From positions 3,145,001 through 3,209,000 of the forward strand of contig NZ_JAUSXC010000001.1 in assembly GCF_030823405.1 (NCBI RefSeq): a stretch of 64,000 bases of DNA, in the 5' to 3' direction. Shown in pieces: positions 1,124 through 12,953 of this stretch. The notes below the pieces were generated by a model. That model saw only the letters and a list, made by a program, of their open reading frames with translations. It was not told the DNA's origin and ran no database searches. How positions within the stretch are numbered: position 1 is the stretch's first letter; each line of letters starts with the position of its first letter. Made by a program: the position numbers and the translations under genes. Source of the DNA: Chryseobacterium ginsenosidimutans (GTDB taxonomy: Bacteria; Bacteroidota; Bacteroidia; Flavobacteriales; Weeksellaceae).

Positions 1124-4100
1124 TTACATCGTTTCCATTTTGAAACTCATGCTTTCGATTACTTTCAAGATCGCTTCAACCGTATCCATTGATGTTAAAC
1201 AAGGTACACCGTTTTCAACACTCATTCTTCTGATCTGGAAACCGTCTCTTTCATACTGTTTTCCTTTCGTCATGGTATTGACAACATATTGAACTTTTCC
1301 TTTTTGAATCAAATCGATCAGGTTGACACTTTCTTCTCCTATTTTGTATCCGATCTTACATGGAATCCCTTGCTCTCCGAAGAATTTTGCAGTTCCTTCC
1401 GTTGCCCAGATTCTAAAACCAACCTCATGGAATCTCGCTGCCAAATCTGCAGCTTCCTGCTTGTGTTTATCAGCTACCGTGAACAAAATTGAGCCGTGCA
1501 TAGGAACTTTTCTTCCTGCTGCAACCAATCCTTTATAAAGAGCTTTCTCTAAAGTCGTGTCTTTCCCCATAACCTCTCCTGTAGACTTCATTTCTGGCCC
1601 TAGAGAGATGTCAACTTTCGTTAATTTTGAGAAAGAGAACACAGGAACTTTAACAAAAACTCCTTCTTTATTTGGAACCAATCCGTTTTTGTAACCTAAA
1701 TCTTTTAATTTCTGACCTAAAATTGCTTTTGTAGCAAGATTTGCCATCGGAACTTCTGTAATTTTGGATAAGAAAGGAACTGTTCTTGATGACCGTGGAT
1801 TCACTTCAATCACATATACGTTTCCTTCGAAAAGAACGTATTGAATATTCATTAAACCAATCACATTCAGTCCTTTAGCTAATCTTTCGGTATAATCTAC
1901 CAATGTATCAATTTCTGCCTGAGAAACATTCTGTGGCGGATACACTGCAATAGAATCACCCGAGTGAACTCCCGCTCTTTCAATATGCTCCATAATTCCA
2001 GGAATGATTACTGTTTCGCCGTCGCAGATCGCGTCGACTTCCACTTCTCTTCCTGTAATATAACGGTCAACTAAAACCGGCTGATCAGGACTTGCATCTA
2101 CCGCAAATTCCATATAATGAGCTAATTCTGCTTCATTGTAGACAATTTCCATTGCTCTACCTCCCAAAACATAGCTTGGACGAACCAAAACCGGATATCC
2201 GATTTCATTGGCAATTATAATTGCTTCTTCTTTTGACGTCGAAGTTTTCCCTAAAGGCTGAGGAATTCCCATTTCCTGAAGAGCTTTTTCAAACTTATCT
2301 CGGTTTTCAGCTCTGTCAAGATCTTCCAGTGAAGTTCCTAAAATCTTAACTCCGTAAGCTGCCAATTTATCTGCTAAATTGATCGCTGTTTGTCCACCAA
2401 ACTGTACTACGACACCTTTTGGTTTTTCCAGGTCGATAATGCTCATCACATCTTCTTCCGTCAAAGGTTCGAAGTATAATTTATCTGAAATCGAGAAGTC
2501 TGTAGAAACGGTTTCAGGGTTATTATTAATGATAATCGCCTCGTAACCCATTTCTTTGATCGCCCAAACCGAGTGAACCGTTGCGTAATCAAACTCAACT
2601 CCCTGCCCGATTCTAATCGGACCAGAACCTAAAACGATGATTTTTTCTTTATCGGTAACTACAGATTCGTTTTCCTCCTCGTAAGTTCCGTAGAAATATG
2701 GTGTTTCAGATTCAAATTCGGCAGCACAGGTGTCTACCATCTTGTAAACCGGAATAATTCCGTTTTCTTTTCTGAAATTGTACACTTCTCTTTGAGTAGA
2801 TTCCCACAGGTGAGCGATATTCTGATCTGAGAAACCTAATTTTTTAGACTGAATTAAAATTTCTTTGTCGAATCTGTTAGCTGCAATTGTCTTTTCGAAA
2901 TCAACTAATTTCTTTAATTTCCAGATGAAGAATTTATCGATTTTACTCCATTCTACGATTTGTTCCCAGTCGTAACCTCTTCTTAAAGCATCACAGATGA
3001 TGAACAATCTTTCGTCATCACAAACTCTGATTCTTCTTTCGATATCTTCGTCCGTTAAAGCTGCAGCCTGTTTTGTTTTTAAACCTAAATGTCTCAAACC
3101 TGTTTCCAGAGAACGCACCGCTTTCTGTAAAGACTCCTCGAAGTTTCTTCCGATCGCCATTACTTCACCAGTCGCTTTCATTTGAGTTGATAATCTTCTG
3201 TCTGCCGTTTCAAATTTATCAAAAGGGAATCTCGGGAATTTAGTGACCACATAATCCAAAGCCGGCTCGAAACATGCGTAAGTTTTTCCTGTAACCGGAT
3301 TCATGATTTCATCTAAAGTAAGTCCTACCGCAATTTTTGCAGCAATCTTAGCAATCGGATAACCTGTTGCTTTTGATGCTAAAGCTGATGATCGGGAAAC
3401 TCTTGGGTTCACTTCGATGATGTAATATTCAAATGAATGTGGGTCTAAAGCCAACTGTACGTTGCATCCTCCTTCAATTCCTAAAGCTCTGATGATTTTC
3501 AGTGAAGCGTTTCTCAACATCTGATATTCTCTGTCAGAAAGCGTCTGAGAAGGCGCTACAACGATTGAGTCACCTGTGTGAACTCCAACCGGATCTATAT
3601 TTTCCATGTTACAAACCACAATTGCGTTGTCGTTTGCATCACGCATTACTTCGTATTCGATTTCTTTGAAACCTGCGATTGATCTTTCGATCAGACATTG
3701 TGTTACAGGACTGTATTTTAATCCTAATTCAGCAATTTCTTTTAATTCAGCTTCGTTGGCAGCGATTCCACCACCTGTTCCACCCATCGTGAAGGCAGGA
3801 CGAACAATTACAGGATAACCGATTTCTTCAGCAAAGCTCAATGCTCCTTCAACCGTAGTTACGATATCAGATTCAGGAACCGGTTCGTTCAATTCTCTCA
3901 TCAATTCACGGAAAAGATCTCTGTCTTCCGCTCTGTTGATCGCAGAAAGCGTTGTTCCAAGAACCTCAACTTTACATTCTTCAAGGATTCCTGATTTTTC
4001 TAATTCTACCGCCATATTCAGACCAGTTTGCCCACCAAGAGTCGGTAAAAGTGCATCCGGACGCTCTTTTCTGATGATGTGACTTACAAATTGAAGTGAA

Positions 4101-4306
4101 ATCGGCTCGATATATACTTTATCAGCGATTTCAACATCTGTCATGATCGTTGCAGGGTTTGAATTGATCAAAATTACCTTGTACCCTTCTTCTCTCAAAG
4201 ACAGGCAAGCCTGCGTTCCTGCGTAATCAAATTCTGCCGCCTGACCGATGATGATTGGTCCTGAACCGATTACTAAAATTGTTTTTATATCTGTACGTTT
4301 TGCCAT
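1124..4306 (-). CDS. carB: Carbamoyl-phosphate synthase large subunit
   Basis: This subunit makes carbamoyl phosphate from bicarbonate, ATP and the ammonia delivered by CarA. It feeds both UMP and arginine synthesis. The 1060 residues show the family's internal duplication. Two Rossmann-like preATP-grasp starts ([19 protein letters not shown] near residue 12, [18 protein letters not shown] near 550) each lead an ATP-grasp domain with [17 protein letters not shown] or [19 protein letters not shown]. The C-terminal 120 residues form the MGS-like allosteric domain ([15 protein letters not shown]). The length is normal. It is the last gene of the pyrB-carA-carB operon, separated from carA by 157 nt that hold a palindromic element. 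Confidence 0.98.
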
Positions 4307-4463: not shown

Positions 4464-5549
4464 TTATTGATTCTTCTTATTTTTAAAATCCTCCATTAAA
4501 TGGATGAAATCATCAAATAAATAGTTCGCATCTTCTGGACCTGGGCTTGCTTCCGGGTGATACTGAACTGAAAAACAAGGGTGAATTTTATGTTTCAGAC
4601 CTTCATTTGTTCTGTCGTTCAATGCGATGTGTGTTTCTATTAAATCTGTTCCTTTCAAACTTTCCTGATCAACTGCATAACCGTGATTTTGAGAAGTGAT
4701 GGCCACTTTATTTTTCTCTAAATCCAACACTGGGTGATTTCCCCCTCTGTGTCCGAATTTTAACTTAAACGTTTTTGCGCCACAAGCCAAACCGATTAAT
4801 TGGTGTCCTAAACAGATTCCGAAGATTGGAACTTTTCCTAATAATCCGCGAATCATTTCCAACGCTTGTTGATTGTCTTCCGGATCTCCAGGACCGTTTG
4901 ACAACATGATTCCGTCCGGATCCATTAATAAAATTTCTTCCGCAGTTGTGTCTTGTGAAACTACGATAATGTCGCAACTTCTTTGAGACAACTCTCTGAT
5001 AATCCCTAATTTAGAACCAAAATCTACCAGTACTACTTTAAAACCCCTTCCCGGATTGGCGTAAGGTGTTTTTGTAGAAACCTGCTCCACCTGATTGGTT
5101 GGGAACGTTGTTGATTTTAATTCTGAAACTACGGTATTATCATCACTATCAGCATTGACGATTTTGCCTTTCACTACTCCGGAATTACGAAGAATTCTTG
5201 TCAGTCTTCTTGTGTCGATCCCCGAAATTCCTGAAAGGTTTTTCTTTTTAAATAATTCATCTAAAGTAATCTGAGTACGGAAATTGGATGGCAAATCACA
5301 AATCTCTTTTACGATAAGACCTTTGATAGCCGGCTCAATACTCTCATAATCATCTCTATTAATCCCATAGTTTCCGATAAGCGGATAGGTCATGCAAACA
5401 ATCTGACCGCAATAAGATGGGTCAGAAATCAGTTCCTGATACCCTGTCATTCCGGTATTGAAAACCACCTCTCCCGCTGTTTCCAATTCTGTTCCGAAAC
5501 CTTCTCCATGAAACACTTCACCGGACTCCAGTATTAACTTTTTCTTCAT
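4464..5549 (-). CDS. carA: Carbamoyl-phosphate synthase small (glutaminase) subunit
   Basis: CarA hydrolyses glutamine and channels ammonia to CarB. The 361-residue protein has the N-terminal CPSase domain (FGTELETAGEVVFNTGMTGY, near residues 18-37). The class I glutamine amidotransferase domain follows. Its nucleophile motif is GICLGHQLIGLA, and the catalytic His/Glu are in SVQYHPEASPGP. It starts 45 nt after pyrB and lies upstream of carB, so the complex is made from one mRNA. There is no arginine-specific second copy in the window, so this enzyme probably serves both PyrB and ArgF'. Confidence 0.98.
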   Translation of the reverse strand: MKKKLILESGEVFHGEGFGTELETAGEVVFNTGMTGYQELISDPSYCGQIVCMTYPLIGNYGINRDDYESIEPAIKGLIVKEICDLPSNFRTQITLDELFKKKNLSGISGIDTRRLTRILRNSGVVKGKIVNADSDDNTVVSELKSTTFPTNQVEQVSTKTPYANPGRGFKVVLVDFGSKLGIIRELSQRSCDIIVVSQDTTAEEILLMDPDGIMLSNGPGDPEDNQQALEMIRGLLGKVPIFGICLGHQLIGLACGAKTFKLKFGHRGGNHPVLDLEKNKVAITSQNHGYAVDQESLKGTDLIETHIALNDRTNEGLKHKIHPCFSVQYHPEASPGPEDANYLFDDFIHLMEDFKNKKNQ

Positions 5550-5594: not shown

Positions 5595-6485
5595 TTATTT
5601 GAAGCTATATCCTTCTTTTTCCAAAGCTTCTTTAAGAATTGCCATTCTTGCGAAAACTCCGTTCTGCATTTGTTTAAAAACTCTTGAACGTTCGCATTCC
5701 ACCAAGTCGGTATCAATCTCAACGCCTCTGTTGATCGGTGCTGGGTGCATGATGATGGCTTCTTTTTTCATTGCTTTTTCTCTTTCTTTCGTCAAACCGT
5801 ATTTTCTGTGGTAATCTGAAGCGGAAAAGCTCATTTTCGCATCGTGTCTTTCGTGTTGGATTCTTAATAACATTAAAACATCCACTTCTTTAATCAATTC
5901 ATCTACTGAAAGATAAGTTCCGTTAATTAAAGCTCCTTCATCAAACCATTGTTCAGGTCCTGAAAAATATACTTTTGCTCCTAATCTTCTTAATGCTTCG
6001 GCATTTGAATTGGCAACACGACTGTGTTTTACGTCTCCTACAATTCCTACTTTTAAACCTTCAAACTTTCCGAATTCCTGATAAATCGTCATCAAATCCA
6101 GCATACATTGAGAAGGATGGTTTCCCGTTCCGTCTCCTCCGTTGATTACTGGAATTTTAATATTTTTTAATTCATCAAAATATCTGTCTTTCTTATCTCT
6201 TATCACGACAAGGTTTACACCCAAGCTTTCAATCGTTTTTACGGTATCATATAAACTCTCCCCTTTGTTCACAGAACTGTTTGCTGCATCAAAAGGAACG
6301 ACTTGCAATCCTAATTTTCTTTCGGCAATATCGAAGCTCGTTTTCGTTCTCGTACTGTCTTCAAAGAAGAGATTTGAACAAAAAACTTCTCCTTCAATTT
6401 TGGCAGTTTTCCCGTTAGCAAAAGCCAGTGCTTCTGTTACTATACTGTTGATTCTCTCGGTGCTTAGTTCTGTAATCGTAAACAT
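5595..6485 (-). CDS. pyrB: Aspartate carbamoyltransferase catalytic subunit
   Basis: PyrB condenses carbamoyl phosphate with L-aspartate, the committed step of pyrimidine synthesis. The 296 residues carry the carbamoyl-phosphate signature [11 protein letters not shown] (near 42-52), a [10 protein letters not shown] loop, [13 protein letters not shown] for the aspartate domain, and [11 protein letters not shown] near the end. No pyrI gene is nearby, so the trimer may lack the E. coli-type regulatory subunit. A leader peptide and terminator directly upstream (6507-6604) point to transcription attenuation. The terminator's T-tract ends about 20 nt before the ATG. Confidence 0.97.
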
Positions 6486-6506
6486 AATATCTTAATTTTT
6501 GAACAT

Positions 6507-6534
6507 AAAAAAAGCGAAGAAAATATCTTCGCTT
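6507..6534 (-). terminator. Attenuator terminator in the pyrB leader
   Basis: On the minus strand a 9-bp stem (AAGCGAAGA/TCTTCGCTT) with a 5-nt loop runs into seven T residues at 6507-6513. It ends only about 20 nt before pyrB and overlaps the leader-ORF stop codon by two bases. Because it lies between the promoter and pyrB it must be conditional, not an end-of-operon terminator. A ribosome on the leader stop codon would cover the 5' arm and prevent folding. Confidence 0.85.
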
Positions 6535-6604
6535 AAAATAAATAAATATCGTAAAGGGCGTCTACGCCCGGTAATTCTAATGATATAAATACTGTGTTAT
6601 TCAT
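6533..6604 (-). CDS. Putative pyr-operon leader peptide (PyrL-like, 23 aa)
   Basis: A 23-codon ORF begins MNNTVFISLELPG and ends DALYDIYLF, then TAA. The stop codon overlaps the first bases of the attenuator stem. The final codons lie in a U-rich run (UUUAUUUAUUUUAA). A GGGCG/CGCCC hairpin (6556-6569) lies 20-30 nt before that, where a polymerase-pausing hairpin would be expected. The ATG is only six bases after the -7 box, so the mRNA would be almost leaderless. The peptide does not resemble E. coli PyrL in sequence; the likeness is in layout only. There is no evidence that it is translated other than this arrangement. Confidence 0.65.
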   Translation of the reverse strand: MNNTVFISLELPGVDALYDIYLF

Positions 6605-6610
6605 TAGGTG

Positions 6611-6642
6611 CAAAGATATAACATTTCTGCGAACTGACAAAA
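6611..6642 (-). promoter_or_regulatory. Bacteroidetes-type promoter of the pyr operon
   Basis: On the minus strand, TTTTG (6638-6642) is followed after exactly 19 nt by TATCTTTG (6611-6618). This matches the Bacteroidetes primary-sigma consensus TTTG / TAnnTTTG. It is the best promoter match seen in the window. Transcription should begin just before the leader-peptide ATG at 6604. Confidence 0.8.
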
Positions 6643-6700
6643 CCGATTTTTAGATTAAATTAAAAAATATTAATATCCCTTTATTTTCATTTTTAAATAC

Positions 6701-6708
6701 TATTTTTG
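6701..6708 (+). promoter_or_regulatory. Candidate -7 box for the Lrp-family gene
   Basis: TATTTTTG matches TAnnTTTG and lies 21 nt before the chosen ATG at 6730. A clear -33 box is not visible. It also argues against the upstream TTG at 6706 as a start codon, because that codon overlaps the box. Confidence 0.45.
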
Positions 6709-6729
6709 TTAAAATTCAACCTCCTCTTT

Positions 6730-7191
6730 ATGGATTTAAAAGATAAAATGATTCTCAGTATCATTCAGGAAGACTCTACTTATTCTGTAAAAGAAATTTC
6801 AGAAAAGATCGGTCTTACCTTTACTCCGACCTATGAGCGCATCAAACAACTGGAGAAACAGGGAATTATTGAAAAATATGTAGGTCTTTTGAATCGTGAA
6901 AAACTAGGCTTAAATATTGTCGTTTATTGCAACGTACGTCTGAAAGAACAATCGAAGAAAGTGTTGGAAACTTTTGAGAAAAATATCATGCAACACGATG
7001 AAGTTCAGGAAATTATCAGCCTTTCCGGCGAATACGACTACATGCTGAAAATTATCGCAAAAGATATTAATTCTTATAATGATTTTACAGTCAACGTCAT
7101 TTCAAACATTCCTAATATTGGGCAATATCACAGTTCTATTGTGCTTCATGAGGTGAAAAAGTCTACTAAGTTTAAGATTGATTTGGGGTAA
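6730..7191 (+). CDS. Lrp/AsnC-family transcriptional regulator
   Basis: These are small DNA-binding proteins whose C-terminal RAM domain binds amino acids and assembles octamers. Residues 1-50 hold the winged helix-turn-helix (YSVKEISEKIGL, TPTYERIKQLEKQGII). Residues 60-150 hold the RAM domain (EIISLSGEYDYMLKIIAKD, and PNIGQYHSSIVLHEVK). The start was taken at MDLKDKMILSIIQ because a TTG eight codons upstream falls in the -7 box. It is divergent from pyrB and a few kb from the arg operon. A role in sensing arginine or another amino acid is possible but unproven. Confidence 0.93.
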   Translation: MDLKDKMILSIIQEDSTYSVKEISEKIGLTFTPTYERIKQLEKQGIIEKYVGLLNREKLGLNIVVYCNVRLKEQSKKVLETFEKNIMQHDEVQEIISLSGEYDYMLKIIAKDINSYNDFTVNVISNIPNIGQYHSSIVLHEVKKSTKFKIDLG

Positions 7192-8547: not shown

Positions 8548-9852
8548 TCACCCCAACAACTTTCCTTTTAATTTATTAAACTGATATTCAATTTTATCTA
8601 AACAAAGATTTCCGATACTTCCTTGATGAGTATGATTCAAATTTTTTATTTCAAAATCAAACTCATTATTTTCAATCTCCTGCCCTACTTTTACGTATGC
8701 ATCACGGAATGAACTTCCGTTTTTCACTTCTTCATTAATTTTTTCTACACTAAAAAGATACTTGTACTTTTCATCGTCCAAAATCCCATCTTTCACCTGA
8801 ATATTCGGTAATGTATAGCTCAAAATTTCAAGACATTCTTTCAAAGAATCAATTGCAGGGAAAAGAATTTCTTTCGTCAACTGCATATCTCGGTGATATC
8901 CTGAAGGAAGATTATTGGTCAACAAAATAAACTCATTCGGCAACGACTGAATTCTGTTACAACGTGCACGAACCAACTCAAAAATATCCGGATTTTTCTT
9001 GTGTGGCATAATGCTGCTTCCTGTTGTAAATTCTTTTGGAAAGCTGATAAAATCGAAGTTCTGACTTAAATATAAGCAAACATCATAGGCAAATTTTCCT
9101 AGTGTTCCTGCTAAAGTCGCCATTGCCATCGACAACATTTTTTCTGATTTTCCACGCGTCATTTGAGCATACACAGAATTGTAATTCATCGACTGAAAAC
9201 CTAAATTATAGGTTGTACTTTCACGATCAATCGGAAAAGATGAGCCGTAACCCGCTGCTGAACCTAGTGGATTTTTATTAATGATATTTTTAACAGAGAA
9301 AAGCATTTCAACATCATCCAACAATGCTTCTGCATAAGCTCCAAACCATAATCCGAAAGAGGAAGGCATCGCAATTTGCAAATGGGTATATCCGGGAAGC
9401 AAAACATTTTTATGTTGATCTGCCAGTTTAATTAAAATTTGAAAAAATTCATCCGTCAAAACTGTAATTTCACGGATTTCATCCAATAAATATAATTTAA
9501 TATCCAATAAAACCTGATCATTTCTTGAACGAGCCGTGTGAATTTTCTTTCCTGTATCTCCTAACCTTTCTATTAAGATAGATTCGATCTGCGAATGAAT
9601 ATCTTCTGCACTTTTATCAATTTTAAAAGATCCGCTTTCGATTTCTTCTAAAATTCCCTCCAAAACAAAAAGCATTTGCACTGATTCTTCATTGGAAATA
9701 ATCCCAACTTCTGACAGCATTTTACAGTGAGCTATCGAACCTTTGACATCGTATTTCGCTAAACGTTCATCAAAATCAAGATCTTTCCCGACGGTGAATT
9801 TATTGACTACTATATTGGTGGCATTATCGTCTTTTTGCCATATTTTTTTCAT
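8548..9852 (-). CDS. argH: Argininosuccinate lyase
   Basis: ArgH splits argininosuccinate into arginine and fumarate, the last step of the pathway. The 434 residues show the fumarase/aspartase fold, with KIHTARSRNDQVLLD near residue 104, YTHLQIAMPSSFG, and the signature GSSIMPHKKNPD near 280. It is the last gene of the arg operon, 226 nt beyond argE. That gap is filled by a folded repeat-like element. No clear terminator was seen after the stop; a DUF2971 gene converges 28 nt away. Confidence 0.97.
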   Translation of the reverse strand: MKKIWQKDDNATNIVVNKFTVGKDLDFDERLAKYDVKGSIAHCKMLSEVGIISNEESVQMLFVLEGILEEIESGSFKIDKSAEDIHSQIESILIERLGDTGKKIHTARSRNDQVLLDIKLYLLDEIREITVLTDEFFQILIKLADQHKNVLLPGYTHLQIAMPSSFGLWFGAYAEALLDDVEMLFSVKNIINKNPLGSAAGYGSSFPIDRESTTYNLGFQSMNYNSVYAQMTRGKSEKMLSMAMATLAGTLGKFAYDVCLYLSQNFDFISFPKEFTTGSSIMPHKKNPDIFELVRARCNRIQSLPNEFILLTNNLPSGYHRDMQLTKEILFPAIDSLKECLEILSYTLPNIQVKDGILDDEKYKYLFSVEKINEEVKNGSSFRDAYVKVGQEIENNEFDFEIKNLNHTHQGSIGNLCLDKIEYQFNKLKGKLLG

Positions 9853-9870
9853 AAAATTCTTTTTTATTTA

Positions 9871-10055
9871 TAATTTTCTTTTGTCTTGAAACAAAAGAAA
9901 CAAAAGTTCAAGACTGGAAACTCCGGCTAAAAATTGAAATTAAATCCTAAAATCCCCAAAACTTGCGCGAATTCAAAACTTGTTCTTCGGTTCAAAATTA
10001 GTGTCGCGCTTCAAACAGTGGGAATTTTTTAACGGATTAAAATTCAATTTTCTTA
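9871..10055. repeat. Nested inverted-repeat element between argE and argH
   Basis: The 226-nt gap holds three sets of complementary arms. GTCTTGAA (9883-9890) pairs with TTCAAGAC (9907-9914). An 18-nt arm at 9929-9946 pairs with 10034-10051 (16 of 18 match). GCGCGA (9965-9970) pairs with TCGCGC (10004-10009) inside the second pair. The AAACAAAAG-like direct repeats at the left end are also typical of dispersed flavobacterial non-coding repeats, as I remember them. There is no coding potential. Confidence 0.65.
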
Positions 10056-10078
10056 ACGCCTCCATTTCCTAGGTCGAT

Positions 10079-11161
10079 TTATAAAACTTTTTCAAGTATC
10101 TGAATATAAATGTCAATTCCCTCTTCTATTTCCTTTATGTAGATGTATTCATCTGCGGTGTGGGATCTTGTGCTGTCACCGGGACCGATTTTCACTGATG
10201 TACACGGAATAATAGCCTGATCGGATGACGTTGGCGAGCCGTACGTTGTCCTCCCAATTTCCAAACCTGACTGTACAAAAGGATGATCCATTTCGATTTT
10301 TGATGAATTTAACCTGAAAGACCTTGCCGTTAAGGTTGATTTCATCTGCGATTGGATGATTTTAAACGCCTCTTCATTAGAATATTCATCAGTAACCCTT
10401 ACATCCAAAGTAAATTGGCACGATTCAGGAACGACATTATGCTGAACTCCAGCATGAATTCCAGACAACGTAACTTTAACTTCACCCAAATAATCCGAAA
10501 CTTTTGGAAATTTGAAGTTTAAGATTTGCTGCAAATCTTCCATACATTTTACAATCGAATTATCATTATTCGGATGAGCGGCGTGAGAAGGTGTACCTTT
10601 CATTTCACCGTCAATAACCAACAATCCTTTTTCCGCAATCGCCAGATTCATCTGCGTGGGTTCCCCTACAATGGCGAGTTCGATATTTGGTAGTTGGGGA
10701 AATAAAGCTTCAATTCCGTCAAAACCTGAAATCTCCTCCTCAGCCGTCAAAGCAATCACTAAGTTATATTGTAAATCTTCCTGATCATAAAAATGTAAAA
10801 AAACCTGCGCCATCGAAACCAAAGAAGCTCCGGCATCATTACTTCCCAATCCAAACAGCTTTCCATCCTTTTCAATCGCTAAAAACGGATCTAAAGTGTA
10901 AGCTTTATTTGGTTTTACGGTATCGTGATGTGTATTCAGCAAAATTGAGGGTTTGAAAACATTAAAATTTTTGTTCACAGCCCAAATGTTATTTTTAAAA
11001 CGTTTTGTAGGGATATTGTTCTTTTTGAAAAAATTTTCAATTTCCACAGATACATTATATTCATCTTTGCTGAATGACGGAATCTCAATCAGTTTTTTTA
11101 ACAAATCCACTGCGTTATTCAGCAATTCTTCTTTACTATAAACAGATTTCAGTTCCTGCAT
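10079..11161 (-). CDS. argE: N-acylornithine/N-acylcitrulline deacylase, M20 family (ArgE-like)
   Basis: This enzyme removes the N-acyl blocking group late in arginine synthesis. The 360 residues follow the M20 metallopeptidase plan. The metal ligand motif THHD lies near 77-80, GSNDAGAS near 107-114, AEEEISG near 140-146, then GEPTQ, and SHTADE near the C-terminus. A dimerisation insert (SHAAHPNNDNSIVKCM) interrupts the catalytic domain. Because ArgF' is of the acylornithine class, the substrate is probably acylcitrulline rather than acetylornithine. Whether the acyl group is acetyl or succinyl cannot be read from the sequence. It overlaps the argB 3' end by 26 nt, so the two are likely translationally coupled. 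Confidence 0.9.
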   Translation of the reverse strand: MQELKSVYSKEELLNNAVDLLKKLIEIPSFSKDEYNVSVEIENFFKKNNIPTKRFKNNIWAVNKNFNVFKPSILLNTHHDTVKPNKAYTLDPFLAIEKDGKLFGLGSNDAGASLVSMAQVFLHFYDQEDLQYNLVIALTAEEEISGFDGIEALFPQLPNIELAIVGEPTQMNLAIAEKGLLVIDGEMKGTPSHAAHPNNDNSIVKCMEDLQQILNFKFPKVSDYLGEVKVTLSGIHAGVQHNVVPESCQFTLDVRVTDEYSNEEAFKIIQSQMKSTLTARSFRLNSSKIEMDHPFVQSGLEIGRTTYGSPTSSDQAIIPCTSVKIGPGDSTRSHTADEYIYIKEIEEGIDIYIQILEKVL

Positions 11162-11930
11162 AATGGTTTTCGATATGGTTTTTGAGTTCAGTTTCTTTAA
11201 TTAAGAATACTTTGTTTACATTATTTTTTACAGCTTCAAGAGCATTTTCAAGTTTAGGTAGAATTCCTTTGTGCAATTTTCCTTCATTTTTTAATGTTGA
11301 AAATTTTCCTTCAGAAATATTTTTCATAACAGATTCAGGATTTTCGAAATCTTCCAAAACGCCTTCTTTATCAAAACAATACAACAACTCCACATCATAT
11401 TTTGAAGACAAAGCCTGCGCAATAACCGAGGCAATCGTGTCTGCATTGGTATTGAAGAGATTTCCTTTTTTGTCGTGTGTAATCGCTGAAAATACTGGAA
11501 CCAATTTAAGTTTAATCAATTTTGAGATTAATTTCTTATTCACGCTTTTCTTCTCAATATCTCCTACAAATCCAAAGTCAATTTCTGCGTGTTCTCTTTT
11601 TTTAGCTTTAATTAAATTGGCATCAGCTCCCGAAAAACCTATTGCTTTACATTTTTTCTGCTGAAGTTTAGCCACGATATTTTTATTGATACCTCCTGCA
11701 TACACCATCGTCACAATATCCAGCGTTTCTTTATCTGTGATTCTTCGTCCGTTGATCATTTTTTGTTCAATGCCTAGTTTATCAGCCAATATGGTTGCTA
11801 ATCTTCCGCCTCCATGAACTAAAATTTTCTTTTCTTTAATTTCAGAAAACTGCTCCAGAAATTCGTTCAGTAATTCTTCGTCATCAATTAATGCCCCGCC
11901 GATTTTTATGATGTATAATTTTTCTTTCAT
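11136..11930 (-). CDS. argB: N-acetyl(or succinyl)glutamate kinase
   Basis: ArgB phosphorylates the gamma-carboxyl of N-acylglutamate. It belongs to the amino-acid kinase family. The start was set at MKEKLYIIKIGGALIDD, which puts the phosphate-binding KIGGA motif at the N-terminus as in relatives; a frame extension of 11 codons upstream looks spurious. HGGGRLATIL near residue 40 and NTNADTIAS near 160 are the substrate and nucleotide loops. The protein has about 264 residues. It lies 36 nt after argF' and overlaps argE. Confidence 0.95.
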   Translation of the reverse strand: MKEKLYIIKIGGALIDDEELLNEFLEQFSEIKEKKILVHGGGRLATILADKLGIEQKMINGRRITDKETLDIVTMVYAGGINKNIVAKLQQKKCKAIGFSGADANLIKAKKREHAEIDFGFVGDIEKKSVNKKLISKLIKLKLVPVFSAITHDKKGNLFNTNADTIASVIAQALSSKYDVELLYCFDKEGVLEDFENPESVMKNISEGKFSTLKNEGKLHKGILPKLENALEAVKNNVNKVFLIKETELKNHIENHYAGTEICL

Positions 11931-11966
11931 TACAAGCATTTTTGTCAGTGTAATCCTTGTCAAGGT

Positions 11967-12953
11967 TTAAAATCTTGACAAGGATAGATTCCCATTATTA
12001 GAATTCAATTCATCCAAGATTTCTGAAAAGACCGCCTGTGCAGAGAAAATTCGGTTTTTTGCTTGTTGATAAATTATCGAATTTTCACCATCCATTACCT
12101 CATCACTCAATTCTACATTACGACGAACCGGAAGGCAGTGCATCACTTTTGCCTGATTGGTATTGGCTAACTTTTCATTCGTCAGCATCCAATTTTCTTT
12201 AACTTCAGGCATTGCTGCGTAATCATTAAAAGACGACCAATTTTTCACATAAATAAAATCCGCATCTTTCAACGCTTCATCCTGATCATGAATAACTTTA
12301 ACTTCTTTTGTGAAGTTTTTATCTAAATCATAACCTTCCGGATTAGCAATTACCAATTCAACATCCATTTCCTGCATCCATTCTGCGAAAGAATTTCCTA
12401 CCGCATGAGCAATTGGTTTGATATGAGGCGCCCAAGTTAAAACCACTTTCGGTTTACGTTCTTCATCCCAATTTTCAATAATTGTGATGCAATCTGCCAA
12501 GCTTTGCAACGGGTGACGGGTAGCCGACTCCAATGAAATTACCGGAACTTTTGCGTGTTGCTCGAACTGGCTTAAAATGCTTTCGTTAACATCATCTTCC
12601 TTAACTTTCATTCCTGCAAAGCAACGAACTGCAATGATGTCACAATATTGATTTAAAACCTCGATCGCATCTTTGATATGCTCTACAGTATCGCCGTTCA
12701 TTACCGCTCCATCTGCGAATTCCAAGTTCCAGGCTTCTTGAGCTGCGTTTAATGTCAAAACATTCAATCCTAAATTCTGAGCTGCAATCTGACTACTCAA
12801 ACGCGTTCTCAAACTTGAGTTTAAAAATACAAGTCCGATAGTTTTTCCTTTTCCTTTTTCTGTTTCCGAAAGAGGATTCTCTTTAATTTGTAAAGCTTTT
12901 TTTATGATTTCCTGTAAGTTTTTAACATCACTTACAGATGTGAGTTTTTTCAT
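11967..12953 (-). CDS. argF': N-acetyl/N-succinylornithine carbamoyltransferase
   Basis: This transcarbamylase uses carbamoyl phosphate and an N-acylated ornithine. The 328 residues contain the phosphate loop NSSLRTRLS near 45-53, where ordinary OTCases have STRT. They also contain the acyl-class motifs ESATRHPLQS, TWAPH and HCLPVRRN. From memory, Bacteroides N-succinylornithine enzymes have Pro at the residue that decides acyl choice (GDKPEH), while the Xanthomonas N-acetyl enzyme has Glu (GD.EEH). Here the loop reads MNGDTVEHI, so the position (90) is Val. Substrate specificity is therefore open. The gene follows argD after a 228-nt gap with an inverted repeat. Confidence 0.93.
   Translation of the reverse strand: MKKLTSVSDVKNLQEIIKKALQIKENPLSETEKGKGKTIGLVFLNSSLRTRLSSQIAAQNLGLNVLTLNAAQEAWNLEFADGAVMNGDTVEHIKDAIEVLNQYCDIIAVRCFAGMKVKEDDVNESILSQFEQHAKVPVISLESATRHPLQSLADCITIIENWDEERKPKVVLTWAPHIKPIAHAVGNSFAEWMQEMDVELVIANPEGYDLDKNFTKEVKVIHDQDEALKDADFIYVKNWSSFNDYAAMPEVKENWMLTNEKLANTNQAKVMHCLPVRRNVELSDEVMDGENSIIYQQAKNRIFSAQAVFSEILDELNSNNGNLSLSRF

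Follow-up and report, generated by a model that had tools for sequence, protein, structure and literature searches.

A candidate UTP-sensing, ribosome-dependent attenuator of pyrBI-type anatomy in front of pyrB in Weeksellaceae

The pyrB-carA-carB operon of Chryseobacterium ginsenosidimutans, a member of the Weeksellaceae, is probably controlled by a ribosome-dependent, UTP-sensing transcription attenuator of the pyrBI type, as judged from the sequence layout of its leader. This operon lies in what we call the window, the whole 64-kb stretch of DNA that was analyzed. The leader combines an ORF that reaches the terminator, a hairpin followed by a U-rich run (present in 27 of 33 dissimilar leaders of the family), a terminator in front of pyrB and a peptide whose sequence appears to be irrelevant, which are the marks of a pyrBI-type system. 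With evidence standing against the main rival explanations, a family-wide attenuator with pyrBI anatomy appears to be real, its response to UTP being a prediction.

Anatomy of the pyrB leader

On the minus strand, positions 6642 to 6486 hold a promoter, a 23-codon ORF, a hairpin, a U-rich stretch and a terminator, after which pyrB, carA and carB follow. An initial annotation had described a promoter, a 23-codon ORF, a GC hairpin, a U-rich run and a terminator at the stop codon before pyrB, and each of these elements was found exactly where it had been placed. Read along the minus strand, the order is TTTG-N19-TATCTTTG, 6 nt, ATG plus 22 codons, TAA, terminator and pyrB. The -33 and -7 elements were read against the Bacteroidetes promoter consensus of PMC7366714. 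The features are as follows.

6638..6641, minus strand: TTTG, -33 element of a Bacteroidetes sigma-A promoter, read from the sequence, with a 19-nt spacer to the -7 box
6611..6618, minus strand: TATCTTTG, -7 box (TAnnTTTG), read from the sequence
6605..6606, minus strand: predicted 5' UTR of about 2 nt (predicted start site 6606), from the position of the box
6577..6607, minus strand: possible weak start-codon stem CTAATGA/TCATTAG, from the fold of the window leader
6533..6604, minus strand: leader ORF, 23 codons plus TAA, peptide MNNTVFISLELPGVDALYDIYLF, with ATG at 6604 and TAA at 6535-6533
6556..6569, minus strand: pause hairpin GGGCG-UAGA-CGCCC inside the leader ORF, read from the sequence
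6535..6555, minus strand: U-rich stretch UUUACGAUAUUUAUUUAUUUU, predicted UTP-sensitive pause region, from the U frequency after the hairpin
6512..6534, minus strand: intrinsic terminator stem-loop of 9 bp with a 5-nt loop, then a U run to 6507
5595..6485, minus strand: pyrB, aspartate carbamoyltransferase catalytic subunit (NF002032, 355.8 bits, cut-off 263)
4464..5549, minus strand: carA, carbamoyl phosphate synthase small subunit (NF009475, 484.1 bits, cut-off 221)
1124..4306, minus strand: carB, carbamoyl phosphate synthase large subunit (NF003671, 1631.7 bits, cut-off 599)

The terminator stem starts in the last two bases of the leader stop codon, and the pyrB ATG (6485) lies 26 nt past the end of the stem, with the U tract counted. 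The leader from 6608 to 6485 had a more stable fold than every one of 200 dinucleotide shuffles (z -5.0). Seven TAnnTTTG-N5-7-ATG sites are present on the two strands of the 64-kb window, and the pyrB leader alone among them has a terminator at the stop codon. Taken together with the conservation of the layout across genera that is described below, these two results place the leader beyond chance.

An Rfam scan of positions 6300-6900 (E up to 10) returned nine matches, none of which reached the gathering score. One of these, a CRISPR-DR3 match at 6691-6720 on the plus strand between the divergent genes (29.8 bits against a gathering score of 41, E 0.11), is probably due to chance. Also near pyrB-carAB, at 8548-12953 on the minus strand, are arginine-biosynthesis-like genes (argininosuccinate lyase, acetylglutamate kinase and a carbamoyltransferase), whose names are based on ORF reading and a weak second PyrB match.

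Conservation of the layout across Weeksellaceae

The sample comprised 122 upstream pyrB regions from 26 Weeksellaceae genera, corresponding to 121 distinct loci in 120 genomes, as genome G035 was taken twice and genome G070 has two pyrB loci. A pyrB match was found in 264 of the 296 genomes of the family, and the 122 regions are part of those available. A script that required a terminator, a TAnnTTTG-like box and a nearby ATG annotated the layout in 117 of the 122 regions (116 of the 121 distinct loci), covering 24 genera. One further locus, L100 of genus g37, showed the layout by eye, with a box-ATG spacing of 7 and an ORF that runs through the terminator. The layout is thus kept in 25 of the 26 genera while the peptide changes. 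The initial annotation had held that a missing ORF and hairpin in close relatives would speak against an attenuator, and it was this check that the leader passed. The exception, which counts against a family-wide attenuator, is genus g36, where the layout was absent from all four loci. The statistics on frame, hairpin, pN/pS and U frequency cover the script-annotated regions, with L100 and the four g36 loci (L112-L115) set aside. The dissimilar set consists of 33 leaders that are under 75% identical.

Three of the g36 loci (L112, L114 and L115) have a TTG-started frame of about 69-83 codons that is open through a different terminator, and this is perhaps a longer leader ORF variant that is more like E. 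coli pyrL in form; in the fourth, L113, the terminator of the other three was not found. The two pyrB loci of G070 (L071 and L106), a genome with 2% contamination by table, each have the leader layout and were given separate genus labels in the frame and hairpin counts.

The start of the leader ORF is tightly positioned. In all 117 script-annotated regions (of 122 tried) the -7 box, TAnnTTTG, ends 5-6 nt before the leader ATG; within the 0-11 nt that the script allowed, 112 regions had a spacing of 6 nt and the remaining 5 a spacing of 5 nt. In Flavobacterium psychrophilum, the sigma-A box is located at -12 to -5, and leaderless mRNAs make up 5.5% of the mRNAs counted (PMC9723704). A box at this position and a 6-nt gap to the ATG together predict a 5' UTR of 2 nt, so that the leader ORF would be nearly leaderless, with transcription predicted to start about 2 nt before the AUG.

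Within the leader ORF, a hairpin with a score of at least 7 that starts 30-48 nt after the ATG was found in 27 of the 33 dissimilar leaders, compared to 2.1 expected (combined P-value 2e-19). This P-value is generous, since the 30-48 nt range was chosen after the sequences had been seen and the shuffles do not keep the frame open. Stronger evidence that the hairpin is conserved appears to come from the turnover of its stem: by hand count, the 27 leaders have 22 different stems, and with hairpins of any score included, the script counted 25 in 30 leaders. Counting against the hairpin are the six leaders that scored below 7 (L055 and L081 with 6, L076 with 4, and L063, L071 and L098 with 0).

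The U content of the 27 hairpin leaders rises from 0.31 before the hairpin to 0.50 after it (P-value 1.5e-8). The rise is not immediate: the U frequency is 0.11-0.33 at positions 1-9 after the hairpin, 0.52 at positions 10-11 and 0.70-0.89 at positions 12-16. In the his and trp pauses, the pause hairpin lies about 11 nt behind the active site of the polymerase. The demand for U would therefore begin where the active site of a hairpin-paused polymerase is expected to sit.

The reading frame that starts at the ATG (frame 0) was open to within 17 nt of the terminator stem in 33 of the 33 dissimilar leaders. As a control, frame 1 was open in 2 and frame 2 in 9 of these leaders, and dinucleotide shuffles gave an expectation of 10.5 ± 2.6. 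In 24 of the 33 leaders, compared to 6.2 expected, the stop codon was positioned between -7 and +3 relative to the stem. Both the 17-nt limit and the -7 to +3 range were chosen after the sequences had been seen, and the controls were run with the same settings. Among all 117 ORFs, 105 stop at the stem and 10 run into or through the terminator, while the remaining two end 11 and 17 nt short of the stem, which counts against the attenuator.

The encoded peptides, by contrast with this constant frame, are dissimilar between genera (e.g. MNNTVFISLELPGVDALYDIYLF, MKRTFPLDHVYIGSDAGNNNIYFI, METLHPTIQVQDVKFDGLPAIKIFIF and MCRLENIFNLKTEGQGPSQRYCYY). In Chryseobacterium, 27 distinct leader ORFs gave a pN of 0.122 and a pS of 0.079, and hence a pN/pS of 1.54, compared to 0.06 for pyrB (25 sequences). 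The ratio was 0.97 in g45, which together with Chryseobacterium is one of the two best sampled genera, and 3.1 in both g24 and g28. Ratios under 0.2 in g21, g30 and g26 count against a neutral peptide, with 1-3 pairs in each; g51 and g42, with one pair each, gave no ratio. These calculations left out ORFs that were longer than 28 codons or had no stop, as well as pairs that differed by more than 3 nt in length or were less than 60% identical. A frame that is open in every dissimilar leader and a leader pN/pS of 1.54 against 0.06 for pyrB together indicate that the openness of the leader frame is under selection and that the sequence of the peptide is not.

A separate observation concerns the synonymous sites of the leader ORF in Chryseobacterium, which are about 8-fold less variable than those of pyrB (pS 0.079 versus 0.63). 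This difference suggests that within Chryseobacterium the RNA itself is constrained, and the conservation seems to exceed what an open frame, a hairpin and a U run require; that it is stronger than an attenuator of this type calls for counts against the mechanism proposed below.

Proposed mechanism and alternative explanations

We infer the start site, translation, pausing and UTP response from sequence, and propose the following course of events. Transcription would start about 2 nt before the leader AUG, and the GC hairpin would form behind RNA polymerase as the U run begins, 10-12 nt past the hairpin. When UTP is ample, the polymerase would move on ahead of the ribosome, the terminator would form and the operon would be off. 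When UTP is scarce, the polymerase would dwell in the U run; the ribosome could then reach the stop codon, which lies where the terminator stem begins, and hold the stem open, which would allow transcription of pyrB-carAB. In the few relatives with longer ORFs, the ribosome would go into or through the terminator. A terminator in E. coli fell in efficiency from about 90% to under 10% when a stop codon was moved to a position 5 bp in front of it (PMC4824070); translation that stops where the stem begins can therefore be enough to block termination. The scheme presupposes that ribosome and polymerase are coupled in Bacteroidota, which we assume.

A bolder version adds a second reading of UTP. 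In the fold of the window leader, CTAATGA/TCATTAG encloses the ATG, and a helix of at least 5 bp over the AUG was found in 17 of the 33 dissimilar leaders, compared to 6.1 ± 2.2 expected; elsewhere such helices use other sequences, e.g. CAATG-GAAA-CATTG. After the beginning of the ORF has been transcribed, a downstream segment of the CAUUAG type could fold away the AUG, which is predicted to lie about 2 nt from the 5' end, and slow transcription at low UTP would give the ribosome a longer time to load on the near-leaderless start. The motif YATT followed by A or G is present in 17 of the 33 leaders by hand count, where the base two before the ATG and its partner are T-A in 7, C-G in 8, C-A in 2 and T-G in none; this count is only suggestive, as it includes kinship and was chosen after looking. 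The stem in the window is weak (-3.2 kcal/mol, with 111 of 200 shuffles folding as well), and 9 of the 33 leaders have no helix over the AUG at all. The start-codon stem is possible, as a bold and unproven extra. We consider it doubtful that a separately evolved sensor has replaced PyrR and reads UTP twice, through the pause in the U run and through the folding away of the leader AUG.

The pair of ORF and terminator might also sense translation in general, such as the initiation rate or the supply of ribosomes, and not UTP. The ORF open in all 33 dissimilar leaders and the stop at the stem in 24 of them are what such a sensor would need, and a neutral peptide fits any signal that depends on the ribosome only. 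This explanation gives no reason why many different stems should preserve a hairpin 32-46 nt from the ATG, or why U should become frequent from 10 nt after the hairpin. It also leaves unexplained why no such leader was seen by eye in the 180 nt upstream of pyrE in 6 genomes, or of pyrD in the 5 of 6 genomes where pyrD was over the cut-off. We therefore regard general sensing of translation as distinctly unlikely.

Sensing through the peptide itself is very improbable. Here the nascent peptide, or starved codons such as those for arginine, would stall the ribosome, as in amino-acid attenuation or with an arrest peptide. carAB also feeds arginine, so its position downstream would suit such control, and the first half of the peptide shows, by eye, a weak pattern (PLDD, SLDL) in several genera, to which the three genera with a pN/pS under 0.2 (1-3 pairs each) may be added. 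With ratios of 1.54 and 0.97, the two most densely sampled genera argue against selection on the peptide, and arginine is present in 19 of the 33 peptides, making up 3.2% of their residues. Pairing of an anti-terminator to the 5' arm of the terminator showed no excess either, the longest helix being 5.30 versus 5.51 by chance. An amino-acid leader-peptide attenuator was rejected on the arginine count and the lack of excess anti-terminator complementarity.

That the leader is a protein- or ligand-binding RNA (a PyrR site or a riboswitch) in which the ORF is incidental is hardly credible. The high nucleotide conservation in Chryseobacterium, synonymous sites included, would be explained by a binding RNA. 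In the 6300-6900 region, however, no Rfam family reached the gathering score, the best match (E 0.11) being located outside the leader; distant genera share, by eye, little sequence beyond the U run and the terminator, and the frame would have no reason to be open in 33 of 33 leaders. Furthermore, PyrR (NF003549) was over the cut-off in none of the 296 Weeksellaceae genomes. Weaker NF003549 matches in 273 of these genomes (best 37 bits, cut-off 138) are putatively other phosphoribosyltransferases.

The distribution of PyrR outside the family bears on the history of the leader. PyrR was over the cut-off (160-188 bits) in 17 of 23 genomes from other families of the order, and in all 17 pyrR stands directly before pyrB on the same strand. 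A PyrB match of 1e-50 or better is present in exactly these 17 genomes and absent from the other 6. The best 80 of 154 relatives of the window's PyrB are 92-99% identical and come from 79 Chryseobacterium and one Weeksellaceae bacterium. In the phylum as a whole, 10 of 395 genomes gave a PyrB match better than 1e-70, and nine of these genomes are Weeksellaceae. In 80 of 82 long loci, a carA match was present in the 1.5-kb flanks of pyrB, in any order or on any strand. Weeksellaceae thus have their own kind of pyrB and no PyrR that was found, with the leader standing where other families have pyrR. We infer that, in order of time, the leader replaced PyrR.

A constitutive partial terminator, with the promoter controlled by an Lrp/AsnC-type regulator, has next to no probability. 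Such a gene (PF01037) is divergent from pyrB at 6706-7191 on the plus strand, and 45 of the 52 long Chryseobacterium loci have an Lrp-like match near pyrB, as do 2 of 2 loci of g51 and short loci of g26 and g28. No such match was present in the long loci available for 11 other genera, although the script annotated the leader layout in all 11; genera represented by short loci alone say nothing on this point.

Comparison with known systems

Enteric bacteria provide the textbook case of attenuation in which a trailing ribosome makes transcription responsive to UTP. That the full layout, built from unlike sequence, is present in a family of another phylum where no PyrR was found suggests that this mechanism evolves repeatedly and that attenuation of the pyrBI type can take the place of a dedicated RNA-binding regulator. 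Since it would work only if ribosomes closely follow RNA polymerase, the leader may serve as a natural reporter for this coupling in Bacteroidota, and likewise for the use of nearly leaderless starts.

PyrR-dependent attenuation of pyr genes is known from Bacillus. The Weeksellaceae leader resembles it in placing pyrimidine-responsive control, here predicted, at pyrB, and differs from it in having a predicted translated ORF. A PyrR-regulated pyr operon was rejected, as such an operon requires an encoded PyrR and none of the 296 genomes has one over the cut-off.

Closer in phylogeny are the amino-acid operons of Flavobacterium psychrophilum, a member of the same order, for which leader-peptide attenuation has been proposed (PMC9723704). 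There too a short translated leader is proposed to control a terminator; the operons concerned are those for amino acids, and the passages of that source considered here name no pyrimidine leader. Searches of open-licence PMC papers turned up no description of leader-peptide attenuation of pyrimidine genes in Bacteroidota, which does not show that none is in print.

The closest likeness is to pyrL of E. coli, where ample UTP leads to fast transcription of the leader and to termination, while limiting UTP makes RNA polymerase pause so that the coupled ribosome prevents the terminator; pausing at the hairpin has been observed there (PMC10135430). Promoter, short ORF, hairpin, U-rich run, intrinsic terminator and pyrB follow each other in the same order in both systems. 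The distance from the ATG to the hairpin is 32 nt in pyrL of strain MG1655, 35 nt in the window and 32-46 nt in the 27 hairpin leaders, and that from the hairpin to the U run is 10, 7 and 5-12 nt, respectively. This similar geometry and the recurrence of the layout in 25 of 26 genera support the likeness to E. coli pyrBI that the initial annotation had claimed. The distance from the hairpin to the terminator differs, with 38 nt in MG1655, 21 nt in the window and 18-26 nt in the 27 leaders, as does the ORF, which in pyrL has 44 codons and runs through the terminator while the 23 codons of the window end at the terminator's foot. Other differences from pyrL are the ATG about 2 nt from the predicted start site and the genes downstream of pyrB, which are carAB in the window and pyrI in E. 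coli.

Descent from E. coli pyrL was considered and rejected, as neither a related peptide (compared by eye) nor a related leader sequence was found. The earlier suggestion that the peptide is unrelated to PyrL and perhaps an independent invention agrees with this comparison. With a peptide unlike PyrL, a PyrB that is 33% identical to that of E. coli, and pyrR in front of pyrB in 17 of the 23 genomes from other families, the Weeksellaceae leader most probably has an origin independent of E. coli pyrL.
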